From: Pseudomonadota bacterium
GTDB lineage: Bacteria; Pseudomonadota; Gammaproteobacteria; Pseudomonadales; Pseudohongiellaceae
Assembly (NCBI GenBank): GCA_027621405.1
Contig: JAQCBT010000009.1
Location: forward strand, 62,001 to 126,000
Length of the DNA stretch: 64,000 nt
Direction of reading: 5' to 3'
The notes beneath the pieces were generated by a model, which was given only the letters and a program-made list of their open reading frames with translations, searched no databases and was not told the origin of the DNA. This document shows, piece after piece, positions 1,900 to 28,475 of this stretch. Position 1 is the first letter of the stretch. Every line of letters begins with the position of its first letter. A program made the translations under genes and the position numbers.

Positions 1900-3066
1900 A
1901 TGAGTCGGGGCAGAGTTATCGCAGCATTAATCCTGATGCTGCTTTCAACAGCTACGAATGCTCATCTGCTGAATATGACGGACCTGCATTTCGATGCATC
2001 CGATCCTGAGGCAGTGTTGCTGCATATCAAGATTGACCTGGGGCAGTCTCTGCTCTCTCCTGTAGATTACTGGCGTGCCGTTAACTCGGATCCCGCTGAG
2101 CAATACGCACTAATTGCGCCTGCGGCTGGTCAATTGCTGAACGGCATGCAGATCCTGATCGGAGGCACGACTGTTTCTGGCAGTCTGCAGTCCTGGAGTC
2201 TGGAGGCGGCATCCCTTGAGGCCATCGAGAATAGCCTCTCTCCCCAGATGGCGATCCTGTCCTTCGACTTTGGGCGCCTGGATATCTCCCCAACAAGTGA
2301 ACCAGCTGACAGTAGCCTGGAACTATTCTTAGACGAGCAACTTGAGATTCCCTGGCCGGCCCTGCTTCGCGTCGATACTTCCACCAGAGCTTTACCCGTT
2401 TCTCGGCTACTTACGGCCAATGACCGCAGGAGTCGCCCAATCTCGTTGATTGACAACATTGAGACTACCGGCTCCTCGGCCATGGCAAGGCTCGCAATTT
2501 CGTTCCAGGCATGGGTACCGGGATTGAGTTGGCTCGCCATAGGGTTTCAGCACATCATCCCCTGGGGTCTCGATCACATCGCCTTCGTTCTGGGTCTGTT
2601 CTTTCTTTCAACACGAATTTCTACCCTGTTCTACCAGGTCAGCTGCTTCACGGTAGCGCATTCGCTCACCCTTGGACTTGCCACCCTGGGCTGGATATCA
2701 GTGCCTGCGAGCATCATTGAACCACTGATCGCCGCCTCCATAGTTTTTATCGCTGTGGACAATCTTTACAACGATCTTTTGGGGCGCTGGCGACTACTGG
2801 TCGTGACCCTGTTCGGCTTGTTACACGGCCTCGGTTTCGCCTCGGCGCTGTCGGAGCTCATGCTGCCAGCGGAAAACTTTTACATGGCACTGTTGATGTT
2901 CAATCTCGGCGTGGAAGCGGGGCAACTCACTGTTTTGGCACTGGCGTTTGCAGCGGTCGGCTGGCTGCGCGGGCGTGCTGCCTACAATGAGCGCGTGGCC
3001 CGCCCAGCCACAGTCACTATCGCCGGCGTTGGCACTTATTGGTTATTAAAGCGAGTAGCATTTTGA
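1900..3066 (+). CDS. HupE/UreJ-family membrane protein
   Basis: This 388-residue protein has a signal peptide (to about residue 21, ...TNAH), a roughly 170-residue extracytoplasmic domain, then a C-terminal multi-helix membrane domain. That domain carries the HupE/UreJ hallmarks: GFQHIIPWGLDHIAF around residues 216-230, FTVAHSLTL near 250, HGLGFA near 310 and FNLGVEAGQ near 332. The conserved His/Asp residues are those proposed to bind Ni or Co in the HupE/UreJ permeases. The version with an extracytoplasmic N-terminal domain is common beside uncharacterised secreted enzymes, and its substrate is not established. Its stop codon overlaps the next ATG (TGATG at 3064-3068), so it is translationally coupled to the metallo-beta-lactamase-fold gene. 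This suggests a metal-supply or assembly partner, which is inference. Confidence 0.85.
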   Translation: MSRGRVIAALILMLLSTATNAHLLNMTDLHFDASDPEAVLLHIKIDLGQSLLSPVDYWRAVNSDPAEQYALIAPAAGQLLNGMQILIGGTTVSGSLQSWSLEAASLEAIENSLSPQMAILSFDFGRLDISPTSEPADSSLELFLDEQLEIPWPALLRVDTSTRALPVSRLLTANDRRSRPISLIDNIETTGSSAMARLAISFQAWVPGLSWLAIGFQHIIPWGLDHIAFVLGLFFLSTRISTLFYQVSCFTVAHSLTLGLATLGWISVPASIIEPLIAASIVFIAVDNLYNDLLGRWRLLVVTLFGLLHGLGFASALSELMLPAENFYMALLMFNLGVEAGQLTVLALAFAAVGWLRGRAAYNERVARPATVTIAGVGTYWLLKRVAF

Positions 3067-4055
3067 TGAGTTTTACTAAACCCCCTGAGCAACTGCGGAC
3101 CTTTGCAGGCATCGCTTGCGTGGCCGCGGTATTGTTGGCATTCGATGTCGCATTCTCTGCCATGGCGCCAGCGCGCATCTCCTTCCCCCTCGATGAACAG
3201 GCACCGGGGGAATTTCCCGCAGAATGGATACATGGCTCCAAGTCGGCCATGGACAATACGGATCCACCTGTACAGGTACACGCTTACAACGAACACACCT
3301 ATATTCTTCGCGAAAACAAGGCGATCAACTATGAGGGTGCATTCATGTACCTGTTCTTTGGCAATGGAGTCGCCATGTTAATCGATCAGGGTTCAACATC
3401 TTCCCCCGCCCTGTTTCCACTTCGGGAAGTGGTAGATGGCGTGATCGACGAGTGGCAGGAGCGTAACGGTCAACATGACATCGAGCTGATCGTCGCCAAC
3501 AGCCACCTGCACGGAGACCACTATGCGGCGTGGAACCAGTTCGTAGACAGGCCCAATACGGTGATGGTGGGCCTGACCCATGAAGAAGTGATGAATTTCT
3601 GGGGCATCGACAATTATCCTCAACAGATCGTCACATACGATCTGGGGGGTCGAGAGCTTGTTGTGACCGGATCGCCTGGCCATCAGGGTTCCGAAATCGC
3701 AATCTACGATGGCTGGACCGACCTGCTGTACACCGGCGACATGTTCTATCGCGGTCGTCTGTATCTGGAAGACTGGGATGCCTGGGTTACCAGCATTCGC
3801 AAACTCCGGGACATCGCGGACCAGAACCCTGTCGTACACCTGGTGAACAATCACATCGAGATGACCACAACACCCGGGCTTGATTATCCGGTGGGTACAA
3901 CCTGGCAACCGGACGAACCCCCGATGGAGATGACCCTTGAGATGCTGGATGAGGCAGTCGAGGCAACGTTCGAAATCGACCGCCCCGGCATCTACATCTA
4001 CGACGATTTCCTGATCTACAACGAAATACCCTGGGGATACACAACGGATCCATAG
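3066..4055 (+). CDS. Metallo-beta-lactamase-fold hydrolase, exported
   Basis: This 329-residue protein has one N-terminal hydrophobic segment (residues 12-33), a probable signal peptide or anchor. The start at 3066 is chosen because TGATG couples it to the gene upstream; an in-frame upstream ATG at 3039 lies deep in that gene. The active-site signature HLHGDH is complete (H147, H149, D151, H152). H206 (GSPGHQG), D225 (YTGDMF) and H263 (NNHIEM) fit the remaining ligands of a binuclear zinc site. The fold is used by beta-lactamases, lactonases, glyoxalases and others, and the substrate cannot be inferred. The following gene is a paralogue that has lost the site. All three genes from 1900 to 5045 look like one operon. 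Confidence 0.88.
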   Translation: MSFTKPPEQLRTFAGIACVAAVLLAFDVAFSAMAPARISFPLDEQAPGEFPAEWIHGSKSAMDNTDPPVQVHAYNEHTYILRENKAINYEGAFMYLFFGNGVAMLIDQGSTSSPALFPLREVVDGVIDEWQERNGQHDIELIVANSHLHGDHYAAWNQFVDRPNTVMVGLTHEEVMNFWGIDNYPQQIVTYDLGGRELVVTGSPGHQGSEIAIYDGWTDLLYTGDMFYRGRLYLEDWDAWVTSIRKLRDIADQNPVVHLVNNHIEMTTTPGLDYPVGTTWQPDEPPMEMTLEMLDEAVEATFEIDRPGIYIYDDFLIYNEIPWGYTTDP

Positions 4056-4058
4056 AGC

Positions 4059-5045
4059 ATGGCAATGAAAAAATTTACTACTGCGCTGGCGCTGTTACTG
4101 GTCAGTTCGAGCATTCAGGCACAGGTTTCCTTTGAGCGTGATACAGCAGCACCGGGAAATCTCAGGTTTACCTGGATTCACGGCAGCATATCCGCGAAAG
4201 CGAATACCGATGTACGTATTCAGGTGCATCGCTACAACGAACATACTTACATCCTCCGGCAAAATCCCGCTATACATTGGGAAGCGCCTTTCATGTATCT
4301 ACTCATGGGCAGCGAGCGAGCCGTGCTTCTCGATGCTGGTGCGACGGAAGAGGCGGAGTATTTTCCGTTGCGCGAAGTGGTGGACGGCGTATTGATGAGA
4401 TGGGCTCAGGCACAGGACATGGAAATGCCTGAGCTGATTGTACTGCCACTCGGTTCGGATCAGTCCCAGACCGCGGCAATCGGGCAATTCAGTGACCGGC
4501 CCAACACTGTGGTTGTGCCTCCCACCGAAGAAGCACGCAGCGAGCTACTGGGAGCAGAATGGTTGCAGGGCAGTGAACTCGATCTGGGCGGGCGTGTGCT
4601 CACAGCGCTGCCGACACCGGGGCTGGATGCTAAGGCTATGAGCCTGTATGACCCATGGGCACAGCTCCTGTTCACGGGAAACGCCTTCTATCCCGGCCGA
4701 CTGGTCATCAGGGACTTTCCAGCTTACCAGCAATCGCTTTCAGATCTGGTGGCCCTGGTTGATGAACATCCAGTCAACATGATTTTTGGTGGCCGCATCG
4801 AAATGACCAGACAGCCAGGATTGGACTACCGGCTTCGCGCCAATTACCGACCCAATGAACGCGCACTTGAAATGGGTCCCAGGCACCTTGACCTCGCTTT
4901 GCAGGCGGTTAACTTGATTAACGGCTCAACCGATATCCGCATCCTGAATGACTTCATTCTGATGCACGGTGTTGGGCGCGGCGCACGCGATTACGGTTTC
5001 CCAGCGTATACTCCGGAACGATTTCTGGCACCGAATACCCGGTAG
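4059..5045 (+). CDS. Metallo-beta-lactamase-fold paralogue with all metal ligands replaced
   Basis: The 328-residue protein starts 3 bases after the upstream stop (ATG at 4059; a second ATG at 4065 is equally possible) and begins with a signal peptide ending ...SSIQAQ. It aligns with the preceding gene along its whole length, sharing RYNEHTYILR, PLREVVDGV, DRPNTVVV, PGLDYR and the C-terminal NDF. At the metal site, however, HLHGDH is replaced by GSDQSQ (residues 132-137), the third His by L189, the bridging Asp by N208 and the last His by R246. The fold is therefore kept while metal catalysis is almost certainly lost. It may be a binding protein, regulator or heteromeric partner of its neighbour. 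There is no frameshift and coding quality is good, so it is not a decaying pseudogene. Confidence 0.85.
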   Translation: MAMKKFTTALALLLVSSSIQAQVSFERDTAAPGNLRFTWIHGSISAKANTDVRIQVHRYNEHTYILRQNPAIHWEAPFMYLLMGSERAVLLDAGATEEAEYFPLREVVDGVLMRWAQAQDMEMPELIVLPLGSDQSQTAAIGQFSDRPNTVVVPPTEEARSELLGAEWLQGSELDLGGRVLTALPTPGLDAKAMSLYDPWAQLLFTGNAFYPGRLVIRDFPAYQQSLSDLVALVDEHPVNMIFGGRIEMTRQPGLDYRLRANYRPNERALEMGPRHLDLALQAVNLINGSTDIRILNDFILMHGVGRGARDYGFPAYTPERFLAPNTR

Positions 5046-5100
5046 GCATTCATCAATCGCAAGCCACCTCTCATTTCGCAAGGAGACGCAGTGGAATTAC

Positions 5101-5409
5101 TCAGCGACGCATTTCGTTCTGGGTGCTGACCACTGGAAGCCGGTTGATCACACTCAGTTTGCGTAGCTCGAAGGAGCGTTCCTTCTCAATCTCGCGCACT
5201 GTCATGCAAACATTTCTGGGAATCCGCGAAGCGGGTCTTCGTCGATCTTCACAAACAACCTGATCCATGGGGGCTTTGTCCAGGTTATAAATGTAGAGCT
5301 CATCGCTCGTCATGTTTGTGAAGTTATAACTGTAGTAACTGTCCTGGTTGCTACTGCAGGCAGTAAACACAAGCAGGAAAGCTCCCCCAAACCAATAGGT
5401 CGCTTTCAT
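5101..5409 (-). CDS. Small predicted lipoprotein, unknown function
   Basis: The 102-residue protein starts at the ATG at 5409, which has a strong ribosome binding site (GAAGGAGTACGAA) just upstream. The longer frame to 5496 has none. The N-terminus MKATYWFGGAFLLVFTACSS is a type II signal peptide with lipobox FTAC, so it should be lipidated and anchored in the envelope. The mature part has two further cysteines (QVVCEDRR and NVCMTV) that could form a disulfide, and an acidic/basic mix without recognisable domain. It is convergent with the metallo-beta-lactamase-fold pair. Function unknown. Confidence 0.75.
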   Translation of the reverse strand: MKATYWFGGAFLLVFTACSSNQDSYYSYNFTNMTSDELYIYNLDKAPMDQVVCEDRRRPASRIPRNVCMTVREIEKERSFELRKLSVINRLPVVSTQNEMRR

Positions 5410-6544
5410 TTCGTACTCCTTCAGGAGAATCTTATCTGTCTTGTTTGTCTTTCGTGCTTTGGGCAAGGGGGATATTAACGCGATTCCCCACCCCATCGTC
5501 TATCGCTTTTTTGATTTAATCACGTACGAACGATGCCAGGGCGGCGATAGGCTGGTTGGGAATAAACGAAGTGACGAGAAAAGCCTACGGGTGTTACGCA
5601 GTTACCCATAGCTTGCACTATGCTGGTGCCTTCTTGTGCCCCAATAGGGATGAGATTGAAACTGGATTATTGTTGTTACTCTGATCCTATCCGCGGCAAG
5701 CTGTCTTCCCGGTATCTACCTGTTGGATTCAAGCTGGTGTGCCAGATGCGGCCACTGTGAGCGAGAGACCGAGTAGCGCCCCCAGGCGCTCCTGGCCCCC
5801 GGGTCGTCTTTCCTGGCGAGTTGCATGACGCCAAATGCCATCTTCATAGAGGCCACGGCACCCAGTAGTGCATTGTTGTCATACTCCCACTTCAGATTGG
5901 AAATAGCAGAATTGCGGCGAATATCAAAAATATGGCCCTTCGTCTGCCTGGAGAGTTTTCTTCTTGCCCGCTCTGTCATTCCTCTAACTCCAGGTACAAA
6001 TTTTCGTCGAGCACCATCGACCTGTGATCTGGCAACGCGGATTGTTTGCCCCGAACCTTGTGCACCTGCCAAAAAATCCATTTCTGGCCTGCTAATTGCA
6101 ATATCAAGCAATCGAGCCACTAAATCCAGACTAAGCAATCTCTATAGCAGCACCAAGAAACAAGCATGTTTGATATCCATTACTGCCTGCAATCGGTTTT
6201 GAAGCCGTCCTTTTCCCCAATTTCGCATCCCGTTCGCAAGACAACATTAACCTTGCCCGAGCTACTGCCTGTTGCCCCGGCACTATTGAAAATGCCGGGA
6301 GGCAAGAGCTTGCACGCCCATAATGGGTGCGCGATGCACCAGATAAGTTCGCCCAGGCAGTCATTTCCCAGGTTTGTATTTCTTGAGCTAAGGGACTAAG
6401 TGACTAAGGGACAGTGAGATTACACGAACAGATTTACCCGGCCGTAAAGGCATTCGCGCTGTGAATCTTGCGCAATAATTTCGAACAAGTATCAGGCACT
6501 GGACCTGCCTGATTCTGCAACCACAATCCATACAGGAGAAAACC
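5410..6544. other. Long intergenic region without a convincing gene
   Basis: About 1.1 kb separates the lipoprotein from the next supported gene. Open frames of 77 to 140 codons occur on both strands (for example 5716-6138 minus, TTG start; 5825-6202 plus), but they lack good ribosome binding sites, overlap one another antisense and match no family I recognise. They could be a degraded gene. A short repeat of CTAAGGGACT-like sequence lies near 6389-6412, next to a GGGACAG motif also seen near 25.6 and 29.9 kb. No RNA gene was recognised. Confidence 0.45.
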
Positions 6545-6733
6545 ATGAAACAGGAATTTACCGTCGAGTTACACGAATCCCAGAACGAGTATCTTAATGA
6601 AATTATCGCTAACTACGGTATCAGGGGCCTTGGCAAGGCGTTGCGGTGCCTCGTTGATTTTTCGATGGACCGCAAAGACCTGGAAGAAGAAATATTCAAG
6701 ACCAAACGTTGCAAGACCTGCAGTAAGGATTAG
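6545..6733 (+). CDS. Small conserved-looking protein with C-terminal CxxC
   Basis: The 62-residue protein has a good ribosome binding site (ACAGGAGAAAACC before ATG). The N-terminal half (MKQEFTVELHESQNEYLNEI) resembles the strand-helix start of a ribbon-helix-helix-like protein. The C-terminus ends in KRCKTCSKD, a possible metal-binding or redox CxxC. It is charged and soluble. Its stop codon overlaps the convergent stop of the pilin-like gene by 3 bases. Function unknown; a small DNA-binding or redox role is only a guess. Confidence 0.7.
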   Translation: MKQEFTVELHESQNEYLNEIIANYGIRGLGKALRCLVDFSMDRKDLEEEIFKTKRCKTCSKD

Positions 6734-7254
6734 TCGTCTTCGGAATCACTAGCGCTCCGGCAGGTATCAGGAAGATAGCGATCCGACAGGGCATAGATTG
6801 TTACAGGGTCAGCCTTACAATCCCATAGAATCGTCCCATCTTCCTGTACTCTGGCAATCAACAGATACGCTGATTCAGTTGCTTCGAAGCGCGCACCAAA
6901 CTCGCCAAGATCAACTATCGCATTGAGGGTACCGGTGAGCTCCGTGTCGGAGCCGGGCTCACCGAGTGCGCCGGTCTGCCAGGTGAAACCCCTGAGAACA
7001 CCGACAGGCGCAAACTCGTCCAGTCCCACTTCGGCCGCAGTCTGCGGCAGAACGCCCTCGGATTCGAAGTAGGCTTCAATTTGCGCCTTCTGTGCCATTC
7101 CTGAATCGACTGCCTCAGCGATGGCATTTTCCAGGCTGTAGTTGAAGTAGAAGCCGTATGCGGTGCTGGCAGCTACGATAACGATGAGTATGTAGGTAAA
7201 TATTTCAGCGGTTGATGCACCTGTTTGTTTGTGCGCAGAGATCAATGCGTTCAT
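6730..7254 (-). CDS. Type IV pilin-like protein with non-canonical processing site
   Basis: The 174-residue protein opens with a short basic leader MNALISAHKQTG, then ASTAEIFTYILIVIVAAS, a roughly 20-residue hydrophobic helix. Cleavage after G12 would place Glu17 at position +5, exactly where type IV pilins carry their conserved Glu. The first mature residue would be Ala, not the usual Phe/Met. The C-terminal pair of cysteines (DCKADP and PDTCRSA) matches the disulfide loop of PilA-like pilins, and the size is typical. It stands alone here with no pil assembly genes nearby, so it would depend on machinery encoded elsewhere. It could be a minor pilin or pseudopilin. It converges with the 62-residue gene, the stop codons overlapping. 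Confidence 0.72.
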   Translation of the reverse strand: MNALISAHKQTGASTAEIFTYILIVIVAASTAYGFYFNYSLENAIAEAVDSGMAQKAQIEAYFESEGVLPQTAAEVGLDEFAPVGVLRGFTWQTGALGEPGSDTELTGTLNAIVDLGEFGARFEATESAYLLIARVQEDGTILWDCKADPVTIYALSDRYLPDTCRSASDSEDD

Positions 7255-7607
7255 CAGTGTGGATCCAATACAAAGTTACGAATGTGAACACCACTGGGGT
7301 GCAAAATTTGTTATGCAACTTTCGCACCAAACAAAGTGTCAGTATGTGTAACTCGGCGCTTCGATTTCTGCCAGGAATAGACTGCGAAAGAGGTTGAATG
7401 GCATCGCTATGATTTGCTTCGAGTAGCAGGCGAACCAATGCGCTGATCCAGAACTTACTGCTCACCTGGACCGATGGTGGAGTTGGGCGACAGGAAGAGA
7501 GTTAGAAGCGCGACTTTGGGCAGCGTGCCATTCCTGTTCACCATTCATGTCCTGGTAATCGGCACCACGATCCGTGGCACCGGTTACTGGTCAAGGAGTG
7601 ATGCTTG
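7255..7607. other. Intergenic region upstream of the pilin-like gene
   Basis: About 350 bases between two minus-strand genes. The segment near 7260-7340 is A/T-rich relative to the genes and probably holds the pilin promoter. The open frames inside it are short and unsupported. Nothing else was recognised. Confidence 0.4.
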
Positions 7608-8261
7608 CTAGGAAGGTTGCTTCGTAGTCCGCAGGTAAGGCAGTTTGATGTCAATGTCACCAAACTTTTCCCTGGCCTGTTCATCATTCAGCGACAGCGC
7701 GACAATCACATCCTGCCCCTGCTGCCAGTTCGCTGGTGTGGCAATCGGCGTGCCATAGGTAGTCTGTAGCGCATCCAGTGCTCGCAGCACTTCGGCGAAA
7801 TTTCGGCCGACTGACATTGGGTAAGTCATGGACAACTGCAGCTTCTTGTCCGGACTGAAGATAAATACCACTCTCACACTGGCGGAATCGGCCGCGGTTC
7901 GACCATCTGGCAGATAGGCGTCCGCTGGCAACATATCGAGGGCTTTGGAAACCGCCAGATTGTCATCCGCAATGATCGGGAACCCGGCTTTGGCTCCTGA
8001 AAAACTTTCGATGTCCGCCTTCCATGCCTTGTGCTCCTCGACACCATCGACAGACAGCCCGATAACCTTGGTACTGCGTTTTTCCCATTCCGCGGCCAGC
8101 TGCGAGACGGCTCCGAATTCGGTGGTGCATACCGGCGTAAAATCCTTGGGGTGACTGAACAGGATCGTCCAGCTGTCACCGATGAATTCGTGGAGTGAGA
8201 AGTTTCCCTGGTCCGTTACAAGGTCCAGATCTGGTACGACATCGTTAATTCTTAGGGCCAT
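7608..8261 (-). CDS. 1-Cys peroxiredoxin (Prx6 family)
   Basis: The 217-residue cytosolic enzyme reduces hydroperoxides using the peroxidatic Cys45 in HPKDFTPVCTTE, preceded by the conserved FSHP. The long C-terminal extension (from about residue 165, TYPMSVGRNFAEVLRALDAL through TPANWQQG) is diagnostic of the Prx6/1-Cys group and mediates dimerisation. No resolving Cys is seen elsewhere. The start MALRINDVVPDL at 8261 has GAGGTAGCACG upstream; the longer frame to 8369 adds a non-homologous stretch. It is monocistronic here and divergent from the repeat-protein gene. Confidence 0.93.
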   Translation of the reverse strand: MALRINDVVPDLDLVTDQGNFSLHEFIGDSWTILFSHPKDFTPVCTTEFGAVSQLAAEWEKRSTKVIGLSVDGVEEHKAWKADIESFSGAKAGFPIIADDNLAVSKALDMLPADAYLPDGRTAADSASVRVVFIFSPDKKLQLSMTYPMSVGRNFAEVLRALDALQTTYGTPIATPANWQQGQDVIVALSLNDEQAREKFGDIDIKLPYLRTTKQPS

Positions 8262-8512
8262 CGTGCTACCTCGCTGCATAAAAAGCCTTGGGTAAAAGAC
8301 GATAGCACAGATAGTGCTTGGCCCGAACCCACGTAAGGAGAGGAATCCACACCCTGGCCAGGAGTGCATACATAGGCGTGGACCCCGGCGATTTGCGAAC
8401 TGGTTGGCGTTTCAGGCCGCCATTTTTCCCCGGAAACTGCTTGGTCGCTGCTATACTTGAAGGCAACCTAGCCCCCCAATTGACCTGAACTGGGCATCCT
8501 GAGGGATATCTC

Positions 8513-10360
8513 ATGCACGCAACACCAACTGCCCTTGTGCTCGATCCCGATCGCCATTCCCCCACTGCACCCTTGAAGCTGCTGGTCCTCGCCTTGACCT
8601 CGCTGGTGATGCTGTTTTCAGCCAACAATACAAGGGCACAGAATCTGGATTCCGAGCCGCTATTAGGGTCGGTCAGTCTGGAGGCAGGATTCAGTTCGAC
8701 TCCCTACACAGTCGAAGTGTCGCCGGGTGGCGAAGACGGGTCCGCACAATTGGGCGACAATTGCTTTGGCTACATCCGCTTTGCGCAGCCGGACTTCGTG
8801 CTCTCTTACCGGGCTGGCGAGAATCCACTCGGGATATTCGCCGTCTCGGATCTCGACATCACGATTGCCATCAACGATCCCGCAGGCAACTGGCACTGCA
8901 ACGATGACAGCCCCTATCTAAGTGATACCAACTCAGGCATCCAGTTCAGTGATCCCCTTTCGGGCGACTACCAGATCTGGGTTGGCAGCTATGATAGCGG
9001 CGCCGAATCGATTACTACCCTGCTGGCCATTACCGAAGCCGACGAAACCGAATGGGCTTCCTTACCGGTTGGCCTCGAAGACTCGGTTTATGCAGCCAAC
9101 TTCGATCTTAATGGCGATATCATCTTCGGTGACGACAGCAGCGGATTTGCCAATGAAGGTGAATGCGACGATCCGCGCTTCCAGGGTCCGGGCGCGGCTT
9201 TCGGCTCCAGCAGCAGTCATCTGTTCAAGGATGCCAGCGACTGCCGCAGCCAGTTCCAGGCTGGCATGGTTACCCTGGCTGAGCCCGAAGACATGAATCT
9301 GAGCGGCGACTTTGACTCGGGCCTGATTGCTGGGGATGCGAGCCTATTTCCCGGAAATACGGTTGGCGTTAACCCGGCGTCCATAGCCGATGCGGGCCCG
9401 TTCGGCGAAGTGATGTCTGCCCTGTGGCAAGCGTTTCAGGCCATCCCCGGCGATAACGCGCCCGCCACGCCACTGCCTTTTGAGTTGGGAGGAAATAACC
9501 TGGCCGACTATGATCGCAACGCCATGACCGCACTAACCGGCATCAATTTCGGCGAGAACAGCGGACCGTTTATCGATGACGGTGAGTGCGATGATCCACG
9601 CTTCGAAGGGCCGGGAGCTTCCGGCATTGATTTCGAGGGCGGCGAATTGACCGACGCCGCCGACTGCAGCAGCCTCTACCTCGAAGGTTCACTGACCTAC
9701 CTGGAGCCCGGGATCGCAGAACCTGAAATGATCGTAGACAGCAACGGTATCAATTTTGGCGACAACAGCAGCGTGTATGCCGATGACGGCGAATGCGACG
9801 ACCCGCGCTTCGAAGGACCCGGAGCCGCATCATTCAACTCCGAAGACGATGAGATGCACGATGCCAACGACTGCCGCAGTTTGTATGAAGCTGGCCGGGT
9901 AAGACTGTTAGAGGGAATCTCCAATCGGGATTCGTCAGCGTCGCTCTCATCTTCGGCGCGATCAAATAGCGCAGCAGGTAACACGCCAGCCGCCCCGCAG
10001 CAGGAGACTTACACGGTCGGTGTTCCACGCGGTGACGTCAACGGAGCTACCCAGGCATACGGTTCCATCTACGCCAGCGGCACAGTGTATGGCAGCCCGA
10101 TCAACCCCGGTGAGCGCGGCCTCAGCTTCATGCCTGATGTGACGAGCTACGCGCCACCCCCTACTCGACCGGAACCCGAAATCGATTTTGGCGATAACAG
10201 CAGCGTATTCGCCAACGATGGTGAATGCGATGACCCCCGTTTCGAAGGCGAAGGTATGGCCTTCGCCAGCTTCGATGAATACCTGGGCAGAGATGCGGAT
10301 GACTGCCGCACGGCCTTTGAAGCGGGGACCATAACCCTGATCCGGGATGAGCAACCATGA
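8513..10360 (+). CDS. Secreted protein with PPC-like domain and four ECDDPRFEG repeats
   Basis: The 615-residue protein has a long N-terminal leader whose hydrophobic core ends LFSANNTRAQ, so it is exported. Residues about 55-170 (LGDNCFGYIRF, DITIAINDPAGNWHCNDD, SGDYQIWVGSYDSG) look like a pre-peptidase C-terminal (PPC)-type beta domain. The rest contains four copies of a roughly 54-residue module, near residues 200, 344, 413 and 557. Each has the pattern (I/N)FGDNSSxxANDGECDDPRFEGPG, a variable stretch, then DAxDCRxxYEAGxxxL. Each copy has two Cys, consistent with one disulfide per module, and clustered Asp/Glu/Asn that could bind calcium. A Ser/Pro/Thr-rich linker lies near residues 470-545. 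The stop overlaps the next ATG (ATGA), so it is coupled to the DUF945 gene. Function unknown. Confidence 0.82.
   Translation: MHATPTALVLDPDRHSPTAPLKLLVLALTSLVMLFSANNTRAQNLDSEPLLGSVSLEAGFSSTPYTVEVSPGGEDGSAQLGDNCFGYIRFAQPDFVLSYRAGENPLGIFAVSDLDITIAINDPAGNWHCNDDSPYLSDTNSGIQFSDPLSGDYQIWVGSYDSGAESITTLLAITEADETEWASLPVGLEDSVYAANFDLNGDIIFGDDSSGFANEGECDDPRFQGPGAAFGSSSSHLFKDASDCRSQFQAGMVTLAEPEDMNLSGDFDSGLIAGDASLFPGNTVGVNPASIADAGPFGEVMSALWQAFQAIPGDNAPATPLPFELGGNNLADYDRNAMTALTGINFGENSGPFIDDGECDDPRFEGPGASGIDFEGGELTDAADCSSLYLEGSLTYLEPGIAEPEMIVDSNGINFGDNSSVYADDGECDDPRFEGPGAASFNSEDDEMHDANDCRSLYEAGRVRLLEGISNRDSSASLSSSARSNSAAGNTPAAPQQETYTVGVPRGDVNGATQAYGSIYASGTVYGSPINPGERGLSFMPDVTSYAPPPTRPEPEIDFGDNSSVFANDGECDDPRFEGEGMAFASFDEYLGRDADDCRTAFEAGTITLIRDEQP
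9112..10342 (+). repeat. Four in-frame ECDDPRFEG modules
   Basis: Copies at about 9112-9279, 9542-9703, 9749-9910 and 10181-10342 encode the same roughly 54-residue motif. Copies 2 and 3 are nearly adjacent (about 45 bases apart), while copies 1-2 and 3-4 are separated by about 260-270 bases of unrelated sequence. The invariant core is G-E-C-D-D-P-R-F, followed 25-30 residues later by D-x-x-D-C. Confidence 0.85.
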
Positions 10361-16505: not shown

Positions 16506-17831
16506 CTAGTCGTCAGACCCTGCAAGACTTCGCTGATCGCGCTCCGCACGCTCGGCAACCAGTTTCTCATAACCCTCTTCGTCCAGATGGGTTACGGCGA
16601 TCCAGGCATGAGACATCTCATCCGTAGTACGCTGACCGGCTCCGACCCACTGGTCCGGATCCGGATTCATTGGATTATCGGCGGTGTTATCGTACCAGGC
16701 AGAGATGATGATGGTCGCGCCAGCCGGAATCAGGGGCTGATAACCTTCTTCATAGGTGTGGCTGTGGTTCCAGGCAGCAGTCCAGTTGGACGCCTGGCTC
16801 AGCACTTCGCGACGGCCGGTTTCCGGGTTGAACATCTCGAGCGACATGGCAACACCGCGCAGGTGCATGTGTGGCTGCCAGCTGTCGATGCGAACAGGAT
16901 GGTCAAAAGAATGGAAGCCCTGGGTCATCAGCTTGCCATGAGGTGGAACCATGTAGTCGCCACCACCTTCCAGGCGATACGCACGCAGGTCCTGCCTGTA
17001 GGCTTCTTCTTCGTTGAAGTTATCTTCTTCGTCGTAGAACCAGATACCTACCTGAACCTGATCGTTAGGTACTGCATTGCCATCAGGGAAGTAGTGAATC
17101 TCCCACTCAACCTTGGAGTTGGCGGGTGCTTTTCGGCAGGCACCTGCAGGAACTTTCTCGCCGAGCTTGCCCAGCGCGAACTCGGACAGACGGTCGCTAT
17201 CAACCCATTCGCCCTCGTCGTTCAGAATCTTGAAGTGAGAGTTGGCATGGTGGGTGGAACCCATCGCGGCGGCTGATGGCAGTGTCTCCACGGCCTTGAT
17301 GCAGCGGCTTTCGGTGATACCGGAATCAACTACCGGCTCCCACCACAGGTCCTGACCCTGGGCTGGAACATTCCAGGCAGCGGATTTGATGATGTGATCG
17401 GGTGGGCCCAGGTCTTCTGCCAGACGCCATTCACCCTTCTTAGGGTATTGTCTTGGTGGAGGCAGGTCTTCTGGATTACCCATAGGAGAACCAGCATTCA
17501 CCCAGGCAACGATCGTATCGATGTCTTCCTGGGACATACGCCAGTCGTTCTTCAATTCCTGCACGCCGATATCGTGATCATACTGATACGGAGGCATGGC
17601 ACGCTGTGCCACCTTGAGCTGAATCAGGGGCGCCCAGGGGCGCACTTCCTCGTAGCTGGTGAAAGACATAGGGCCGATCGCACCAGGCTGGTGGCAGATC
17701 TGGCAGTTGTCTTGAATAATTCGGGAAACTTCCTTCGCATAGGTGGGGTGGGCGGCCTCATCCTGTGCGCTGGCTACTGCTGGCAATAAAGCCAGGGCTG
17801 AGCCCAATCCAATCAATCCTGCAATTCTCAT
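16506..17831 (-). CDS. Cytochrome c fused to PHM/DBH-type copper monooxygenase (paralogue A)
   Basis: The 441-residue exported protein has a signal peptide (cleaved after ...ASAQ, about residue 23). A cytochrome c domain follows with heme motif CQICH (C43, C46, H47) and a candidate axial Met (M79, RAMPPYQ). Next is a two-domain copper type II monooxygenase. The copper sites expected from animal peptidylglycine hydroxylating monooxygenase are all present: CuH ligands H194-H195 (STHHANS) and H246 (EIHYFPDG); CuM ligands H321 and H323 (WQPHMHLRG) and M406 (TTDEMSHAW). The heme domain probably supplies electrons in place of ascorbate (inference). About 75% of residues match the copy at 24189, but this one lacks an FNR-like box and has no lyase gene beside it. 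Ribosome binding site GAGGAAAAGCAA; own terminator. Confidence 0.85.
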   Translation of the reverse strand: MRIAGLIGLGSALALLPAVASAQDEAAHPTYAKEVSRIIQDNCQICHQPGAIGPMSFTSYEEVRPWAPLIQLKVAQRAMPPYQYDHDIGVQELKNDWRMSQEDIDTIVAWVNAGSPMGNPEDLPPPRQYPKKGEWRLAEDLGPPDHIIKSAAWNVPAQGQDLWWEPVVDSGITESRCIKAVETLPSAAAMGSTHHANSHFKILNDEGEWVDSDRLSEFALGKLGEKVPAGACRKAPANSKVEWEIHYFPDGNAVPNDQVQVGIWFYDEEDNFNEEEAYRQDLRAYRLEGGGDYMVPPHGKLMTQGFHSFDHPVRIDSWQPHMHLRGVAMSLEMFNPETGRREVLSQASNWTAAWNHSHTYEEGYQPLIPAGATIIISAWYDNTADNPMNPDPDQWVGAGQRTTDEMSHAWIAVTHLDEEGYEKLVAERAERDQRSLAGSDD

Positions 17832-24188: not shown

Positions 24189-25511
24189 ATGAAAATAGTC
24201 AAAGCGGCAGGGCTTTTCTCAGCCATGGCTCTGGTGCCCGCGTTCGCTAACGCCCAGGACCAGAGTGATCACCCAACCTATGCGAATGAAGTATCGCGAA
24301 TCATTCAGGACAACTGTCAGAGCTGCCACCAACCTGGCCAGATCGGGCCCATGTCCTTCACTTCCTATGAAGAAGTGCGCCCCTGGGCACCGTTGATCTC
24401 CTTGAAGGTGGCCAGCCGTGAGATGCCTCCTTATCAGTATGACTCGGATAAAGGAATCCAGGAACTGAAGAACGACTGGCGCATGTCCCAGGAAGATATC
24501 GACACAGTCGTAGCCTGGGTAAATGCGGGCTCCCCCATGGGCAACCCCGAGGATTTACCACCGCCACGGCAATATCCGGAAAAAGGCCAATGGCGCCTTG
24601 CAGCCGAGTTGGGCCAACCCGATCACGTCATTATGTCCACACCCTGGGATGTGCCAGCCAATGGTCAGGACCTGTGGTGGGAGCCCAGGGTTCCAACCGG
24701 GGTTACAGAGAATCGTTGCATCAAGGCCATCGAGACCTTGCCATCAAAAGAGGCTCATGGATCGACGCACCATGCCAATTCCATGTTCGTAGTCCAGAAT
24801 GACAGCGGTGCGTGGATGCCGGTCGGCATGCTTTCCGAATTTGCCTTCGGCAAATTGGGTGAGAAGATACCCGAGGGTGCCTGCAGAAAAATTCCAGAGG
24901 GCGCAGAAGTCAGCTGGAGCATCCACTACTATCCGGACGGAAAGGCGGTACCAAATGACCAGGTATCGGTAGGTATCTGGTTCCACGATGAAGACGAAGG
25001 CTTCGACGAAGAAGAGACCTATCGTCAGGACCTGAGTCTCTATTTCCTAGAGAGTGGCGGAGACTATCTGATCCCACCCCACGGTACATTAATGACCCAG
25101 GGTTTCCATTCCTTCGATCATCCAGTTCGCCTGGACAGCTGGCAACCTCACCTGCATCTGAGAGGCGTGGCCATGGCTATCGAGATTTTCGATCCTGAAA
25201 CTGGACGCCGCGAACTGGTGAGCCAGGCTTCCAACTGGAATGCCGGCTGGAACCACAGTCACACCTATGAAGATGGTTACCAGCCACTGGTTCCCGCGGG
25301 TGCCACCATCATTCTGACGGCTTGGTATGACAACACGGGTAATAACCCACGCAACCCTGACCCTGATCAGTGGGTAGGTGCCGGCCAGCGTACCACCGAC
25401 GAGATGTCACATGCCTGGATTGCTGTGACCCATCTGGACGAAGAAGGCTACGAGAGAATGCTGGCTGAGCGTAAAGAACGCGACGACCGCACCCTCGCCG
25501 GTTCAGACTAG
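24189..25511 (+). CDS. Cytochrome c fused to PHM/DBH-type copper monooxygenase (paralogue B)
   Basis: The 440-residue exported protein has a signal peptide to about residue 22 (FANAQ), cytochrome c motif CQSCH (C43, C46, H47) with M79 as likely sixth ligand, then the copper type II monooxygenase fold. Expected ligands are all there: CuH site H194, H195 (STHHANS) and H246 (SIHYYPDG); CuM site H321, H323 (WQPHLHLRG) and M406 (TTDEMSHAW). Animal enzymes of this family hydroxylate the C-alpha of peptidyl-glycine or the benzylic carbon of dopamine using ascorbate; here the attached heme could be the electron donor (inference). The next gene resembles the PAL lyase that completes peptide amidation in animals. 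FNR-like promoter upstream, GGAGAGTAGT ribosome site, strong terminator after the stop. Confidence 0.87.
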   Translation: MKIVKAAGLFSAMALVPAFANAQDQSDHPTYANEVSRIIQDNCQSCHQPGQIGPMSFTSYEEVRPWAPLISLKVASREMPPYQYDSDKGIQELKNDWRMSQEDIDTVVAWVNAGSPMGNPEDLPPPRQYPEKGQWRLAAELGQPDHVIMSTPWDVPANGQDLWWEPRVPTGVTENRCIKAIETLPSKEAHGSTHHANSMFVVQNDSGAWMPVGMLSEFAFGKLGEKIPEGACRKIPEGAEVSWSIHYYPDGKAVPNDQVSVGIWFHDEDEGFDEEETYRQDLSLYFLESGGDYLIPPHGTLMTQGFHSFDHPVRLDSWQPHLHLRGVAMAIEIFDPETGRRELVSQASNWNAGWNHSHTYEDGYQPLVPAGATIILTAWYDNTGNNPRNPDPDQWVGAGQRTTDEMSHAWIAVTHLDEEGYERMLAERKERDDRTLAGSD

Positions 25512-25547
25512 TGTAACTGCCCTCCCAGGCAAGCAGGACGCAAGTCC

Positions 25548-25588
25548 AAAAAGGCCCCCGCGAGCGATGCTCTCGGGGGCCTTTTTTT
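25548..25588 (+). terminator. Rho-independent terminator after paralogue B
   Basis: AAAAAGGCCCCCG pairs with CGGGGGCCTTTTT (the stem extends 4 bp further with one mismatch). A short loop and a run of seven T follow, starting 36 bases after the stop of the monooxygenase gene. It implies that the lyase-like gene downstream is at least partly expressed from its own promoter. Confidence 0.93.
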
Positions 25589-25608
25589 GGTTCTTCGCAG
25601 ATTTCCGA

Positions 25609-25680
25609 GAAAATAGGGACAGATAGAAAATAGGGACAGATTTATTTTTTTTTAAAAAAAATAAATCTGTCCCTATTTTC
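25609..25680. repeat. Perfect 27-bp inverted repeat with extra direct half-copy (GGGACAGAT element)
   Basis: Positions 25626-25652 and 25654-25680 are exact reverse complements around a single central T. Each arm contains TAGGGACAGATTTA next to an eight-base A/T run. The first 16 bases of the arm are also repeated directly at 25609-25624. Related half-elements appear near 29942 (CAGGGACAGATTTTTT) and 6405 (AAGGGACAG). The structure resembles interspersed extragenic palindromes or a miniature mobile element. No transposase is adjacent. Confidence 0.85.
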
Positions 25681-25812
25681 ACAGACGCGGGCAGGACTAC
25701 ACCCTGCAGATTAGCCCCTGCAGACAGGCCTGAGAGACGGTGGTTTATGGCCAACAGAGCTTGGTTCCCAAGGGCTCCCTGCTATACTGATCGGGTTTTC
25801 AGGAGAAACATA

Positions 25813-26781
25813 ATGAAAAAAACATTCCTGGCCTGCCTTATTCTCATACTGATTTCGCCCCATGTATCGGCCCAGCGCCCCATACGTCAGTTATTCCCGC
25901 TGCGCGCCTACAACCTCCAGGGCTACGTACCGGTGCCCTTCGAAGAAGCCTTCGCGCTGCCGGCCAGCATGGAGACGGCGTCCTATGCCGGCGTGGCGAT
26001 GAACGCCAGAGGCAATCTGGTCATTCTGAGTCGCGGCAGCCCTACCTTCCTCGAATTCCAGACCGACGGCAGCTTCGTGCGTTCGTTCGGGGCCGACGGC
26101 CTGCTGGCTCGTAGCCACGGAATGCATATCGATCGGGAGGACAACATCTGGGTGACCGATGTGCGCGATCATGTCGTGATGAAGCTGGACTCGAACGGCA
26201 ATGTGCTGATGACTCTTGGCACCAAGGGTCAATCAGGCGAGTGGGATGAGGCAGCCGGCGCGCGCCTGTTCAGCGAACCCAACGATGTCGCACTGGATTC
26301 AGCGGGCAATGTCTATGTTGCCCAGGGCCATGGCGGCGAATTTCCCCGGGTCATCAAGTTCAGTCCAGAAGGCAACTTCATAACACAGTGGGGCAGTCGC
26401 GGTTATGGCCCGGGGCAGTACGTTGCTGCCCATTCCATCGATGTCGATGAGAACGACATCATCTATGTGGCTGACCGTGAAAACATGCGCATCCAGCGCT
26501 ACGACACCGAAGGCATTATGCTGAGAACCTGGGATTTCGACGCCATGGTTTGTGCCATTTACTGGCACGACGACGGGTACCTTTATATCACTACTGGCTT
26601 CGATGGCGAGATGGCCAAGGTCGATAACGTCGGCAAGGTAATCGGCGCGATCGGCAGCCCCGGAAATGGTAATGGGCAATTTGGCGAGGCCCATCACCTT
26701 ACCGTAGACGATGAAGAAAATGTGTACGTGTCTGACGTGATTCTCAGGCGTGTCCAAAAATTTGAGAACGTACAGAGATAG
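25813..26781 (+). CDS. NHL-repeat beta-propeller resembling peptidylglycine amidating lyase (PAL)
   Basis: The 322-residue exported protein has a signal peptide to HVSAQ (about residue 21), then NHL-type beta-propeller blades. Segments match the PAL domain of animal PAM closely: LSRGSP (R74, matching the catalytic Arg), RSHGMHIDREDNIWVTDVRD (H102), FSEPNDVALD, KFSPEGNFITQWGSRG, AAHSIDV (H207), VYVADREN-type IIYVADRENMRIQRY and EAHHLTVDDEENVYVSD (H294). The three His align with the PAL zinc ligands. The PAL catalytic Tyr position is not conserved (QGHGGEF near 171-177). PAL cleaves alpha-hydroxyglycine peptides to amide plus glyoxylate. Its place behind a PHM-like gene supports a linked reaction. 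Start at 25813 behind AGGAGAAACATA. It could instead be a generic NHL hydrolase/lyase. Confidence 0.8.
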   Translation: MKKTFLACLILILISPHVSAQRPIRQLFPLRAYNLQGYVPVPFEEAFALPASMETASYAGVAMNARGNLVILSRGSPTFLEFQTDGSFVRSFGADGLLARSHGMHIDREDNIWVTDVRDHVVMKLDSNGNVLMTLGTKGQSGEWDEAAGARLFSEPNDVALDSAGNVYVAQGHGGEFPRVIKFSPEGNFITQWGSRGYGPGQYVAAHSIDVDENDIIYVADRENMRIQRYDTEGIMLRTWDFDAMVCAIYWHDDGYLYITTGFDGEMAKVDNVGKVIGAIGSPGNGNGQFGEAHHLTVDDEENVYVSDVILRRVQKFENVQR

Positions 26782-26837: not shown

Positions 26838-28475
26838 ATGCGGATCTTCCCCCGCTTCAAGTCACTCATAGTCATTCTGGTCCTGTCGCTGTGCACTCTC
26901 GGCAGCGTTGCCCAGGAAGCAAGCAAGCAGGTCGTGATGGTTCCCATGCGCGACGGCATCAACCTGGCGACAAATATTTATCTCCCGGACGGCGAGGGCC
27001 CGTGGCCGGTAGTATTGACACGAACCCCCTACAACAAGAATGGCGCAGACCGCAGTGCCGCGACTTACAACGAGGCGGGTTACGTACTGGTGTCACAGGA
27101 TGTCAGGGGGCGGTATGAGTCCGAGGGCGAGGATCAGCCTTTCGAAGTAGACATGCCAGACGGTTTTGACACGGTGGAATGGATAGCGGAACAACCCTGG
27201 AGTAATGGCAAGGTTGGAATCTTTGGTACATCTGCGCCAGGGATCACATCCAACCTGGCGGCAGCAGCAGCACCTCCGCATTTGACTGCGGCCTACGTGA
27301 CTGTCGCGCCCGATAGCCTGTTTTACCGCTCACGGTTCGTTGGTGGTGTATTCAAGGAGAGCCATTCGGGTGGCTGGTTGCGCGGACAGGGCATCAGCGA
27401 AGAACGTATTGCTGCTTACAAGGCCCGGGCAGTGCTTGACCAGGGGTGGAAGGATACAGATTTCCTGTTCCATCGGGACCATGTACAGATTCCGATATAC
27501 AACGTGGGTGGCTGGCATGATATCTACGCTGAAGGATCCCTCTATAACTATCTTTACCTGCAGGAACAGGGAGCCGGTCTCGCTGCAGGAAATCAGAAAC
27601 TGTTTATGGGAGCGTTTGGTCATGGCGCCTTGCAGGGTGACCTGGTTTACCCTGATGGCGGTTTCATAACCGGCAGCATGGACGAACAGCTCCGCTGGTG
27701 GGACTACTGGCTCAAAGGTGAAGACAACGGCATCATGGATGAACCACCTGTCAGCTTTTACATGATGGCATCTGCGCGCAAGGACTCCCCCAGCAATAAA
27801 AACCGCCTGATTCAGACTGATCACTGGCCACCGCAGCATGAGAAGACCCGCTTTTATCTTCTCCCCGGCGGCACAATAAACACCTCACCACCGACAGCCG
27901 ATTCGGCGTCCATCACCTACCAGTTCGATCCGGCCAACCCGGTCCCCACCGTTGGCGGACAGAACCTCGGCAGCGATGTCGGACCCCGAGACCAGCGTGA
28001 GATTGGCGAGCGACAGGATTACCTGAGATTCCAAACGCCGGTTCTGGAAGAAGATGTTGTGGTGGCCGGACATATCGACATGGAGTTATATGTATCGACG
28101 GATGCCCTCGATACCGATTTTGTCGTGAAACTCGTGGACATCTATCCAGACGGCTATGAAGCGCTCATCCTCGACTACCCGCTACGCATGCGATTCCGTG
28201 ATGGCCAGAATGCCGAGGATGTAAAGATGATGACGCCGGGCGAGGTTGAGAAGGTCACTATCAATATGTGGAGCACAGCCCAGACCTTTGAAGCAGGCCA
28301 CCGTATCGGTATCCATGTGAGCAGCAGCAACTACCCACGCTTTGCAGTGAACCCAAACAATGGTGCCGCCCTGGATGATCTGGATACACCTGCAAAAATC
28401 GCGACCAACACGATTTATTTTGATGCGCAGCATCCATCCGCGATGATCCTGCCGGTGGTTACTGAGGATCTATAG
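26838..28475 (+). CDS. CocE/NonD-family (S15-like) hydrolase, secreted
   Basis: The 545-residue protein has a signal peptide (ending GSVAQE, about residue 27). An alpha/beta-hydrolase domain follows with VPMRDGINLATNIYLP, TRTPYNK and the nucleophile motif GTSAPG (Ser near residue 131; the family usually has GxSYxG). The Asp motif GGWHDIY and the His motif FGHGALQGD complete the triad. The C-terminal jelly roll (DTDFVVKLVDIYPDG, VEKVTINMW, HRIGIHVSSSNYPRF) is the X-Pro dipeptidyl-peptidase C domain. Members hydrolyse peptides, amino-acid esters, acyl-cephalosporins or cocaine. Good ribosome site (AAGAAGGAGACACCGAG). It lies 56 bases after the PAL-like gene and is probably co-transcribed, so it may process the same substrate class (inference). 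Confidence 0.9.
   Translation: MRIFPRFKSLIVILVLSLCTLGSVAQEASKQVVMVPMRDGINLATNIYLPDGEGPWPVVLTRTPYNKNGADRSAATYNEAGYVLVSQDVRGRYESEGEDQPFEVDMPDGFDTVEWIAEQPWSNGKVGIFGTSAPGITSNLAAAAAPPHLTAAYVTVAPDSLFYRSRFVGGVFKESHSGGWLRGQGISEERIAAYKARAVLDQGWKDTDFLFHRDHVQIPIYNVGGWHDIYAEGSLYNYLYLQEQGAGLAAGNQKLFMGAFGHGALQGDLVYPDGGFITGSMDEQLRWWDYWLKGEDNGIMDEPPVSFYMMASARKDSPSNKNRLIQTDHWPPQHEKTRFYLLPGGTINTSPPTADSASITYQFDPANPVPTVGGQNLGSDVGPRDQREIGERQDYLRFQTPVLEEDVVVAGHIDMELYVSTDALDTDFVVKLVDIYPDGYEALILDYPLRMRFRDGQNAEDVKMMTPGEVEKVTINMWSTAQTFEAGHRIGIHVSSSNYPRFAVNPNNGAALDDLDTPAKIATNTIYFDAQHPSAMILPVVTEDL

Follow-up and report, generated by a model that had tools for sequence, protein, structure and literature searches.

The question raised by this locus is whether two neighbouring genes of a bacterium of the family Pseudohongiellaceae (Pseudomonadota) form a prokaryotic counterpart of the animal peptide-amidation enzymes. 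In animals, the textbook enzymes PHM and PAL are involved in the formation of peptide amides, and DBH in that of noradrenaline. The DNA analyzed, hereafter referred to as the window, is a stretch of 64,000 nucleotides (assembly GCA_027621405.1, contig JAQCBT010000009.1, positions 62,001 to 126,000). Its forward strand carries a gene for an exported fusion of cytochrome c with a copper type II monooxygenase of the DBH/PHM type (440 amino acids; positions 24189–25511), followed by a gene for a PAL-like protein (25813–26781), and the initial annotation of this DNA had proposed that the two act as a pair. Comparison of sequences makes us lean, by a small degree, towards another reading: the window gene would be one of approximately 19 heme-copper paralogs of its genome, its PAL-like neighbour would stand there by chance, and the PHM-PAL counterpart would be a different cluster of the same genome, located at the ends of contigs C47 and C14 and having a catabolic role.

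The fusion protein starts with a signal-peptide-like N-terminus (residues 1–22, 24189–24254; cleavage site judged by eye), as also examined through hydropathy. It contains a CxxCH heme motif (C43, C46 and H47; residues 43–47, 24315–24329) and an invariant MPP motif whose methionine (M79, 24423–24425) may be the axial ligand of the heme. The candidate copper ligands are H194-H195 (24768–24773) and H246 (24924–24926) of the CuH site, and H321-L-H323 (25149–25157) and M406 of a DEM motif (25404–25406) of the CuM site. All ten of these heme and copper residues are invariant in an alignment of the window protein with 58 relatives (59 sequences). The ligands and heme motif are exactly those named in the initial annotation. 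In a wider set of 23 sequences, composed of the window protein and 22 paralogs from three genomes (25–77% identity to the window protein), C43, C46, H47, M79, H194, H195, H246 and M406 are again invariant, while H321 and H323 are retained in 22. The pattern of ligand and heme residues is beyond chance. The exceptional sequence (L054:17385–19118) is a redoxin-cytochrome c-PHM paralog in which RARMN replaces HxH, possibly a dead enzyme kept within a PHM cluster.

When a profile of the 23 sequences was compared with the PDB, human DBH (4zel) was the top match (E 4.6e-5), which bears out the claim of a heme-fused relative of PHM/DBH. The alignment pairs HH with HH, HY with HY and HxH with HTH of DBH; M406 lies beyond the aligned part. 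In a direct comparison (hhalign) of the family with the DBH stretch, the probability was 93.3% (E 2.6e-7), as against 0.1% for an exact reversal. The Pfam domain Cu2_monoox_C matches 10 of the 23 family members at E ≤0.1, and among nine relatives scanned singly with it, one exceeded the curated cut-off (the own-genome paralog L044:3286; 23.3, cut-off 23), six scored below it and two gave no match. Core homology, seen at the level of the family, and the HH, H, HxH and M ligand positions place these proteins in the DBH/PHM copper type II monooxygenase superfamily; they are predicted to bind metal and heme. The family differs from DBH in being prokaryotic and exported, and in its N-terminal cytochrome c (redoxin plus cytochrome c in some paralogs), in place of which DBH has a DOMON domain; its electron donor is likely to be heme rather than ascorbate. 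We take the ligand pattern of the PHM domain of PAM to be the same as that of the bacterial family.

The own genome contains 19 PHM-family open reading frames, two of which are contig-end pieces that may represent one gene. A second member is found in the window itself (16506–17831, minus strand, beside genes that by eye resemble pntAB); its product is also a cytochrome c-PHM fusion and is 77% identical to that of 24189–25511. This gene is not mentioned in the initial annotation, nor are the intergenic elements described below. Each of 25 same-genus genomes, the own genome included, gave 11–35 matches to the family, in which a gene split in two may count twice, and 0 of 13 genomes from other families of the order gave any. 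In a wider comparison each of the 84 genomes of the genus matches it. Among 299 genomes across the phylum, with up to five candidates scored per genome, full-length matches were present in three (the own genome, G408 and G245), and the remaining 72 matching genomes showed partial matches in the cytochrome c region. Relatives that carry names are labelled cytochrome c, mono- or diheme cytochrome c and hypothetical protein, and even as cytochrome P450; these names omit a copper enzyme, and the copper domain has therefore gone unrecognized there.

The neighbouring gene encodes a PAL-family protein, an NHL propeller with six blades. The open reading frame extends from the first ATG at 25747 to 26781, and the likely start at 25813 yields a protein of 322 amino acids with a signal-peptide-like beginning, the form to which the residue numbers of the initial annotation refer, so that both products appear to be exported, as had been supposed. 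Alignment with pieces of rat PAL revealed equivalents of R533, H585, H690, R706 and H786, the three zinc-binding histidines and both arginines of PAL. The position of the catalytic tyrosine, Y654, is occupied by His173. An alignment with 59 relatives (60 sequences in all) shows no variation at R74, H102, H173, H207, R222 and H294, in agreement with the PAL-like residues (R74, H102, H207 and H294) and the missing tyrosine of the initial annotation. The methionine equivalent to M784 of PAL is present in none of the bacterial PAL-like sequences compared. These sequences fall into three classes, having (i) Tyr and three His, (ii) His and three His, as in the window protein, or (iii) His and a Glu in place of the third metal His. 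Some relatives are named "peptidyl-alpha-hydroxyglycine alpha-amidating lyase family protein" by NCBI. A PDB match of the window protein to rat PAL was rejected as proof of class; because other NHL propellers score alike or higher, the class was judged by residues.

The two window genes lie on the same strand, 305 bp apart, and are separated by a terminator and then a palindromic repeat. The intrinsic terminator, a hairpin followed by a T run (25550–25588, forward strand), folds with −28.3 kcal/mol (z −4.74; equalled by 0 of 200 shuffles), and is absent from the list obtained in a simple terminator scan of the window. The REP-like repeat (25610–25679) contains three copies of AAAATAGGGACAGAT, the only ones in the window, and none occurred in 100 shuffles. 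An ortholog of the window PAL is contained in 40 other genomes of the family, and its locus was analyzed in 22 of them (flanks of up to approx. 8 kb, some shorter at contig ends); a PHM-like gene, in both cases of another subfamily, is located near it in two of these 22 loci. The third gene to which the initial annotation had pointed, encoding a CocE/NonD family hydrolase (26838–28475, forward strand; model matches to Peptidase_S15, PepX_C and TIGR00976), is indeed present in the window; no relative of it was found beside the PAL ortholog in the 22 loci, and it was rejected as a conserved third member. The 1.5 kb flanks of 29 PAL loci besides that of the window, in some of which the PAL gene itself was missed by gene picking, likewise showed neither PHM nor CocE.

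The distribution of the two window genes over 137 genomes of the family, with up to 12 candidates scored per genome, is that expected of independent genes. A close ortholog of the window PAL (at least 350 bits) occurs in 41 genomes and a window-type PHM (at least 690 bits, a count that omits a truncated 74% match of 633 bits in G002) in 54; both are present in 16. Window-type PHM is therefore found in 16 of 41 genomes with the PAL ortholog vs 38 of 96 without it (odds ratio 0.98). The PAL ortholog is still held by 16 of 20 family genomes that have no PHM match, and in the closest relative holding both genes (G129; PHM 87% identical) they are on different contigs. The proposal of a functional pair is not sustained by these results: adjacency in other genomes, on which the initial annotation had made its pairing depend, is unconserved. 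An operon of the two genes was rejected, and since a terminator separates them, a PHM gene accompanies so few PAL orthologs and the PAL gene persists in PHM-less genomes, their adjacency is probably accidental.

What fails for the window pair is found elsewhere in the same genome. Two PAL homologs with a tyrosine at the Y654 position (Tyr-type PALs) stand right at the beginning of two contigs, C47 (L032:275–1459) and C14 (L044:291–1475, minus strand). Because the gene order of relatives implies it, the two contig ends can be supposed to abut, and would then represent one split cluster. The order, assembled from the own loci and their orthologs, is CstA – PHM3 – PHM2 – HupE-like – PAL2 – PAL1 – c70 – endonuclease – (response regulator) – PHM1 – amidohydrolase 3 – penicillin-amidase-like – aminotransferase – GntP permease, and in many loci parts of it are absent or cut off. 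Besides cytochrome c, the PHM proteins of the cluster have an N-terminal redoxin/AhpC-TSA domain. In 40 further loci, chosen by hand from the match list on the PAL match alone, a PHM gene lies within 5 kb of the Tyr-type PAL in 29, where approximately three would be expected (our own arithmetic, from PHM densities). Linkage of PHM with PAL is thus seen for the C47/C14 cluster and not for the window locus, and the idea of a bacterial PHM-PAL counterpart, unsupported for the window pair, remains viable for the conserved cluster in which Tyr-type PALs have redoxin-cytochrome c-PHM genes as neighbours.

The residues of the cluster proteins are in line with this. Among 70 distinct Tyr-type PALs, selected through similarity to two Tyr-type queries, all have Tyr at the Y654 position and 69 have equivalents of R533, H585, Y654, H690, R706 and H786, the other one having an unread X at H690. 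A profile of the Tyr class and two other Tyr-bearing PALs gives one continuous alignment to PAL (3fvz) at E 1.1e-28, another NHL protein scoring higher. An arginine at −2 of HxH is found in 12/12 PHM2 and 17/18 PHM3 sequences, and the string MFIGY, with Tyr at +4 of the Met, in 11/12 and 17/18, respectively. We take these two positions to be those of R240 and Y318, which bind the carboxylate in rat PHM; the window protein, with Gln319 and Trp410 there, lacks this feature of PHM proper. Of 116 genomes with a PHM match (E <1e-20), 105 also contain a Tyr-type PAL (E <1e-120), as against 0 of 21 others (hand count, Fisher test).

From the directly observed genes, motifs, homology and conservation of order we infer metal and heme binding, the electron route, the substrates and every reaction step of the following scheme. 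Electrons from the periplasmic respiratory pool would enter through the c-heme (His47/Met79), which would pass them to the H-site copper (H194, H195 and H246). The M-site copper (H321, H323 and M406) would activate dioxygen and would then hydroxylate some small organic molecule of the periplasm at a C-H bond. That heme and copper domain are fused suggests the respiratory chain, in place of ascorbate, as the source of electrons. The window PAL-like protein, with His in place of the catalytic Tyr, would belong to a related family of lyases and act independently. For the C47/C14 cluster we propose the removal of glycine-type groups, with N-acylglycines or C-terminal glycines as substrates: its PHM would hydroxylate, PAL would release glyoxylate and an amide, the amide would be hydrolyzed, and the glyoxylate transaminated to glycine, the purpose being catabolism and not hormone making. 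Amidation-like catabolism is supported by the gene content of the cluster, namely the PAL residues, the amidase and the glyoxylate-type aminotransferase. For the PHM family as a whole, the likely use is periplasmic oxidation or dealkylation of organic nitrogen compounds. More specifically, we offer as a tentative proposal, one we would stop short of calling probable, that Pseudohongiellaceae possess a genuine prokaryotic PHM-PAL pathway in which respiratory-fed, redoxin-cytochrome c-fused copper monooxygenases serve nutrition by stripping N-acylglycines or glycine-ended peptides of glyoxylate. The window gene would be one of about 19 diversified copies of the heme-copper oxygenase.

A number of observations count against this explanation. 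As regards the family, the window protein alone gave no match to Cu2_monooxygen or Cu2_monoox_C at E 1 and did not match PHM/DBH chains in a single-sequence search, and its assignment as a copper monooxygenase therefore rests on the family. PHM was not among the PDB matches of the 23-sequence profile (E 10), and a profile composed mostly of cluster PHMs found neither DBH nor PHM among PDB chains at E 10. One genome of the same genus, G107, has only two PHM matches. As regards the proximity of PHM and PAL genes, the window PAL used as query gave PHM and PAL within 5 kb of each other in 18 of 61 cases in three genomes, a moderate association only, and in the complete genome G024 in 8 of 29 vs a mean of 1.4; second gene pieces and weak repeats in long frames (8 of 83 PHM rows, 7 of 68 PAL rows) are excluded from these counts. 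A PAL-like gene is present in 10 of the best 80 of 576 PHM loci.

As regards the C47/C14 cluster, 11 of the 40 loci are without a nearby PHM gene; seven of these are short contigs, and L217, L230, L231 and L232 measure 14.5–19.9 kb, the first three 19.9 kb. A solitary Tyr-type PAL occurs in G024 (L242). The aminotransferase was found in 14 of 45 loci, and PHM, PAL and aminotransferase jointly in 10 of 45, many loci ending at contig ends. The best NCBIfam match of this aminotransferase, aspartate-glyoxylate aminotransferase BhcA, reaches 419 bits vs a cut-off of 650. None of 26 PHM1 sequences has the arginine at −2 of HxH. Descent explains part of the co-occurrence across genomes, because five PHM-rich genera are set against three, and the 21 PHM-less genomes hold weaker relatives of Tyr-type PAL, with E values down to 3.7e-99.

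Three other explanations were weighed against the preferred one. The first annotation's view, that the window pair acts in sequence as a bacterial PAM whose PAL-like member has a mechanism changed through the replacement of Tyr by His, is very improbable: the common strand, the short gap, the signal-peptide-like starts and the retained metal histidines and arginines would suit it, but the intervening terminator, the scarcity of PHM genes near PAL orthologs, the PHM-less genomes with PAL, the independent occurrence of window-type PHM and its Gln and Trp at the positions of the Arg and Tyr of cluster PHM2 and PHM3 all argue against it. We also find it improbable that the PHM-like proteins are heme/copper redox proteins or copper-binding proteins built on a DBH scaffold instead of monooxygenases. 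The heme and redoxin fusions could mean a redox relay, and the paralog devoid of the HxH pair would be at home in such a family, but 22 of 23 sequences retain all six copper ligands, even the methionine at the site of oxygen activation, which speaks against this view.

It is also conceivable, and we consider it rather doubtful, that the Tyr-type cluster is not amidation-like at all and handles other hydroxylated intermediates, for example through N-, O- or C-dealkylation or simple hydroxylation of metabolites from algae; in other PHM loci, alcohol dehydrogenases would complete the conversion. This would agree with the GMC oxidoreductase or PQQ alcohol dehydrogenase genes of some of those loci, with a family profile that finds DBH and not PHM, and with the many paralogs, which suggest many substrates; moreover, the sister clade HTCC2089 is described, in a passage of PMC8371827, as rich in oxygenase genes, probably for degradation. 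The complete set of PAL residues in the cluster, the amidase and glyoxylate-aminotransferase-like genes in part of the loci, and the Arg and Tyr kept by PHM2 and PHM3 nevertheless speak against it.

If the catabolic explanation is correct, bacteria possess a large relative of the amidation chemistry of animals, one that serves catabolism. A bacterial family that combines these copper ligands with a built-in heme donor would offer easily expressed model enzymes, would allow ascorbate-free entry of electrons at the H-site to be tested, and would hint at the origin of the animal PHM, DBH and PAL enzymes. The conserved PHM-PAL cluster renders a bacterial amidation-like pathway directly testable. 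In open-access literature, outside which most subscription journals lie, no title or opening of an abstract referred to a bacterial cytochrome c-PHM protein or a PHM-PAL cluster; the matching passages of PMC6529398 and PMC5461114 contain nothing on bacterial PHM, and the genera of HTCC2089 and Pseudohongiellaceae are called little studied in a passage of PMC8371827.

The neighbours of PHM genes at other loci were analyzed in a scan which gave 592 pattern matches, 576 of them confirmed; the best 80 of the 576 were used, and the neighbour statistics are drawn from close relatives. The commonest neighbour, present in 60 of these 80 loci, encodes an exported protein of approximately 310 residues, here termed c1 (e.g. 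L004:2820–3746 and L051:6296–7246), whose match to PKD is weak (E 0.0011) and falls short of the cut-off. It lies within 400 bp of a PHM gene in 88 of 90 copies (80 of 82 distinct sequences). Because the loci were mostly fetched for their PHM genes, this count means that PHM is usually accompanied by c1, and leaves room for c1 genes standing by themselves. A c1 gene likewise comes after PHM in loci of metagenome-assembled genomes labelled Gemmatimonadota (L116, L120, L122, L127 and L128), and no match to c1 was found in the window. c1 is a candidate partner, or copper or electron donor, of the cytochrome c-PHM proteins.

A second association of PHM with PAL-like genes is formed by the order c27 – PHM – c1 – c4 – PAL-like – PQQ dehydrogenase, observed in L123, L125, L126 and L146, in which c27 resembles a TonB receptor by eye; in L119 the c27 position is taken by another gene and the order is otherwise the same. 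The PAL-like genes of L125 and L146 belong to the His/Glu class. Runs of 55%-type PHM genes, after which come genes for the small protein c9 and for a GMC oxidoreductase, were identified in L132, L136, L138, L139, L141, L143, L148 and L150. In L061, a gene for an exported protein of 1760 residues with NHL-type similarity (3343–8625) is located 149 bp from a redoxin-cytochrome c-PHM gene.

Within the window, the region upstream of the cytochrome c-PHM gene contains an OmpW gene and, in divergent orientation, a MipA gene. The gene at 1900–3066 is related (69 bits) to the HupE/UreJ-like gene of the Tyr-type PAL cluster, and the 615-residue protein encoded at 8513–10360 contains four repeats of the type DDGECDDPRFEGPG.

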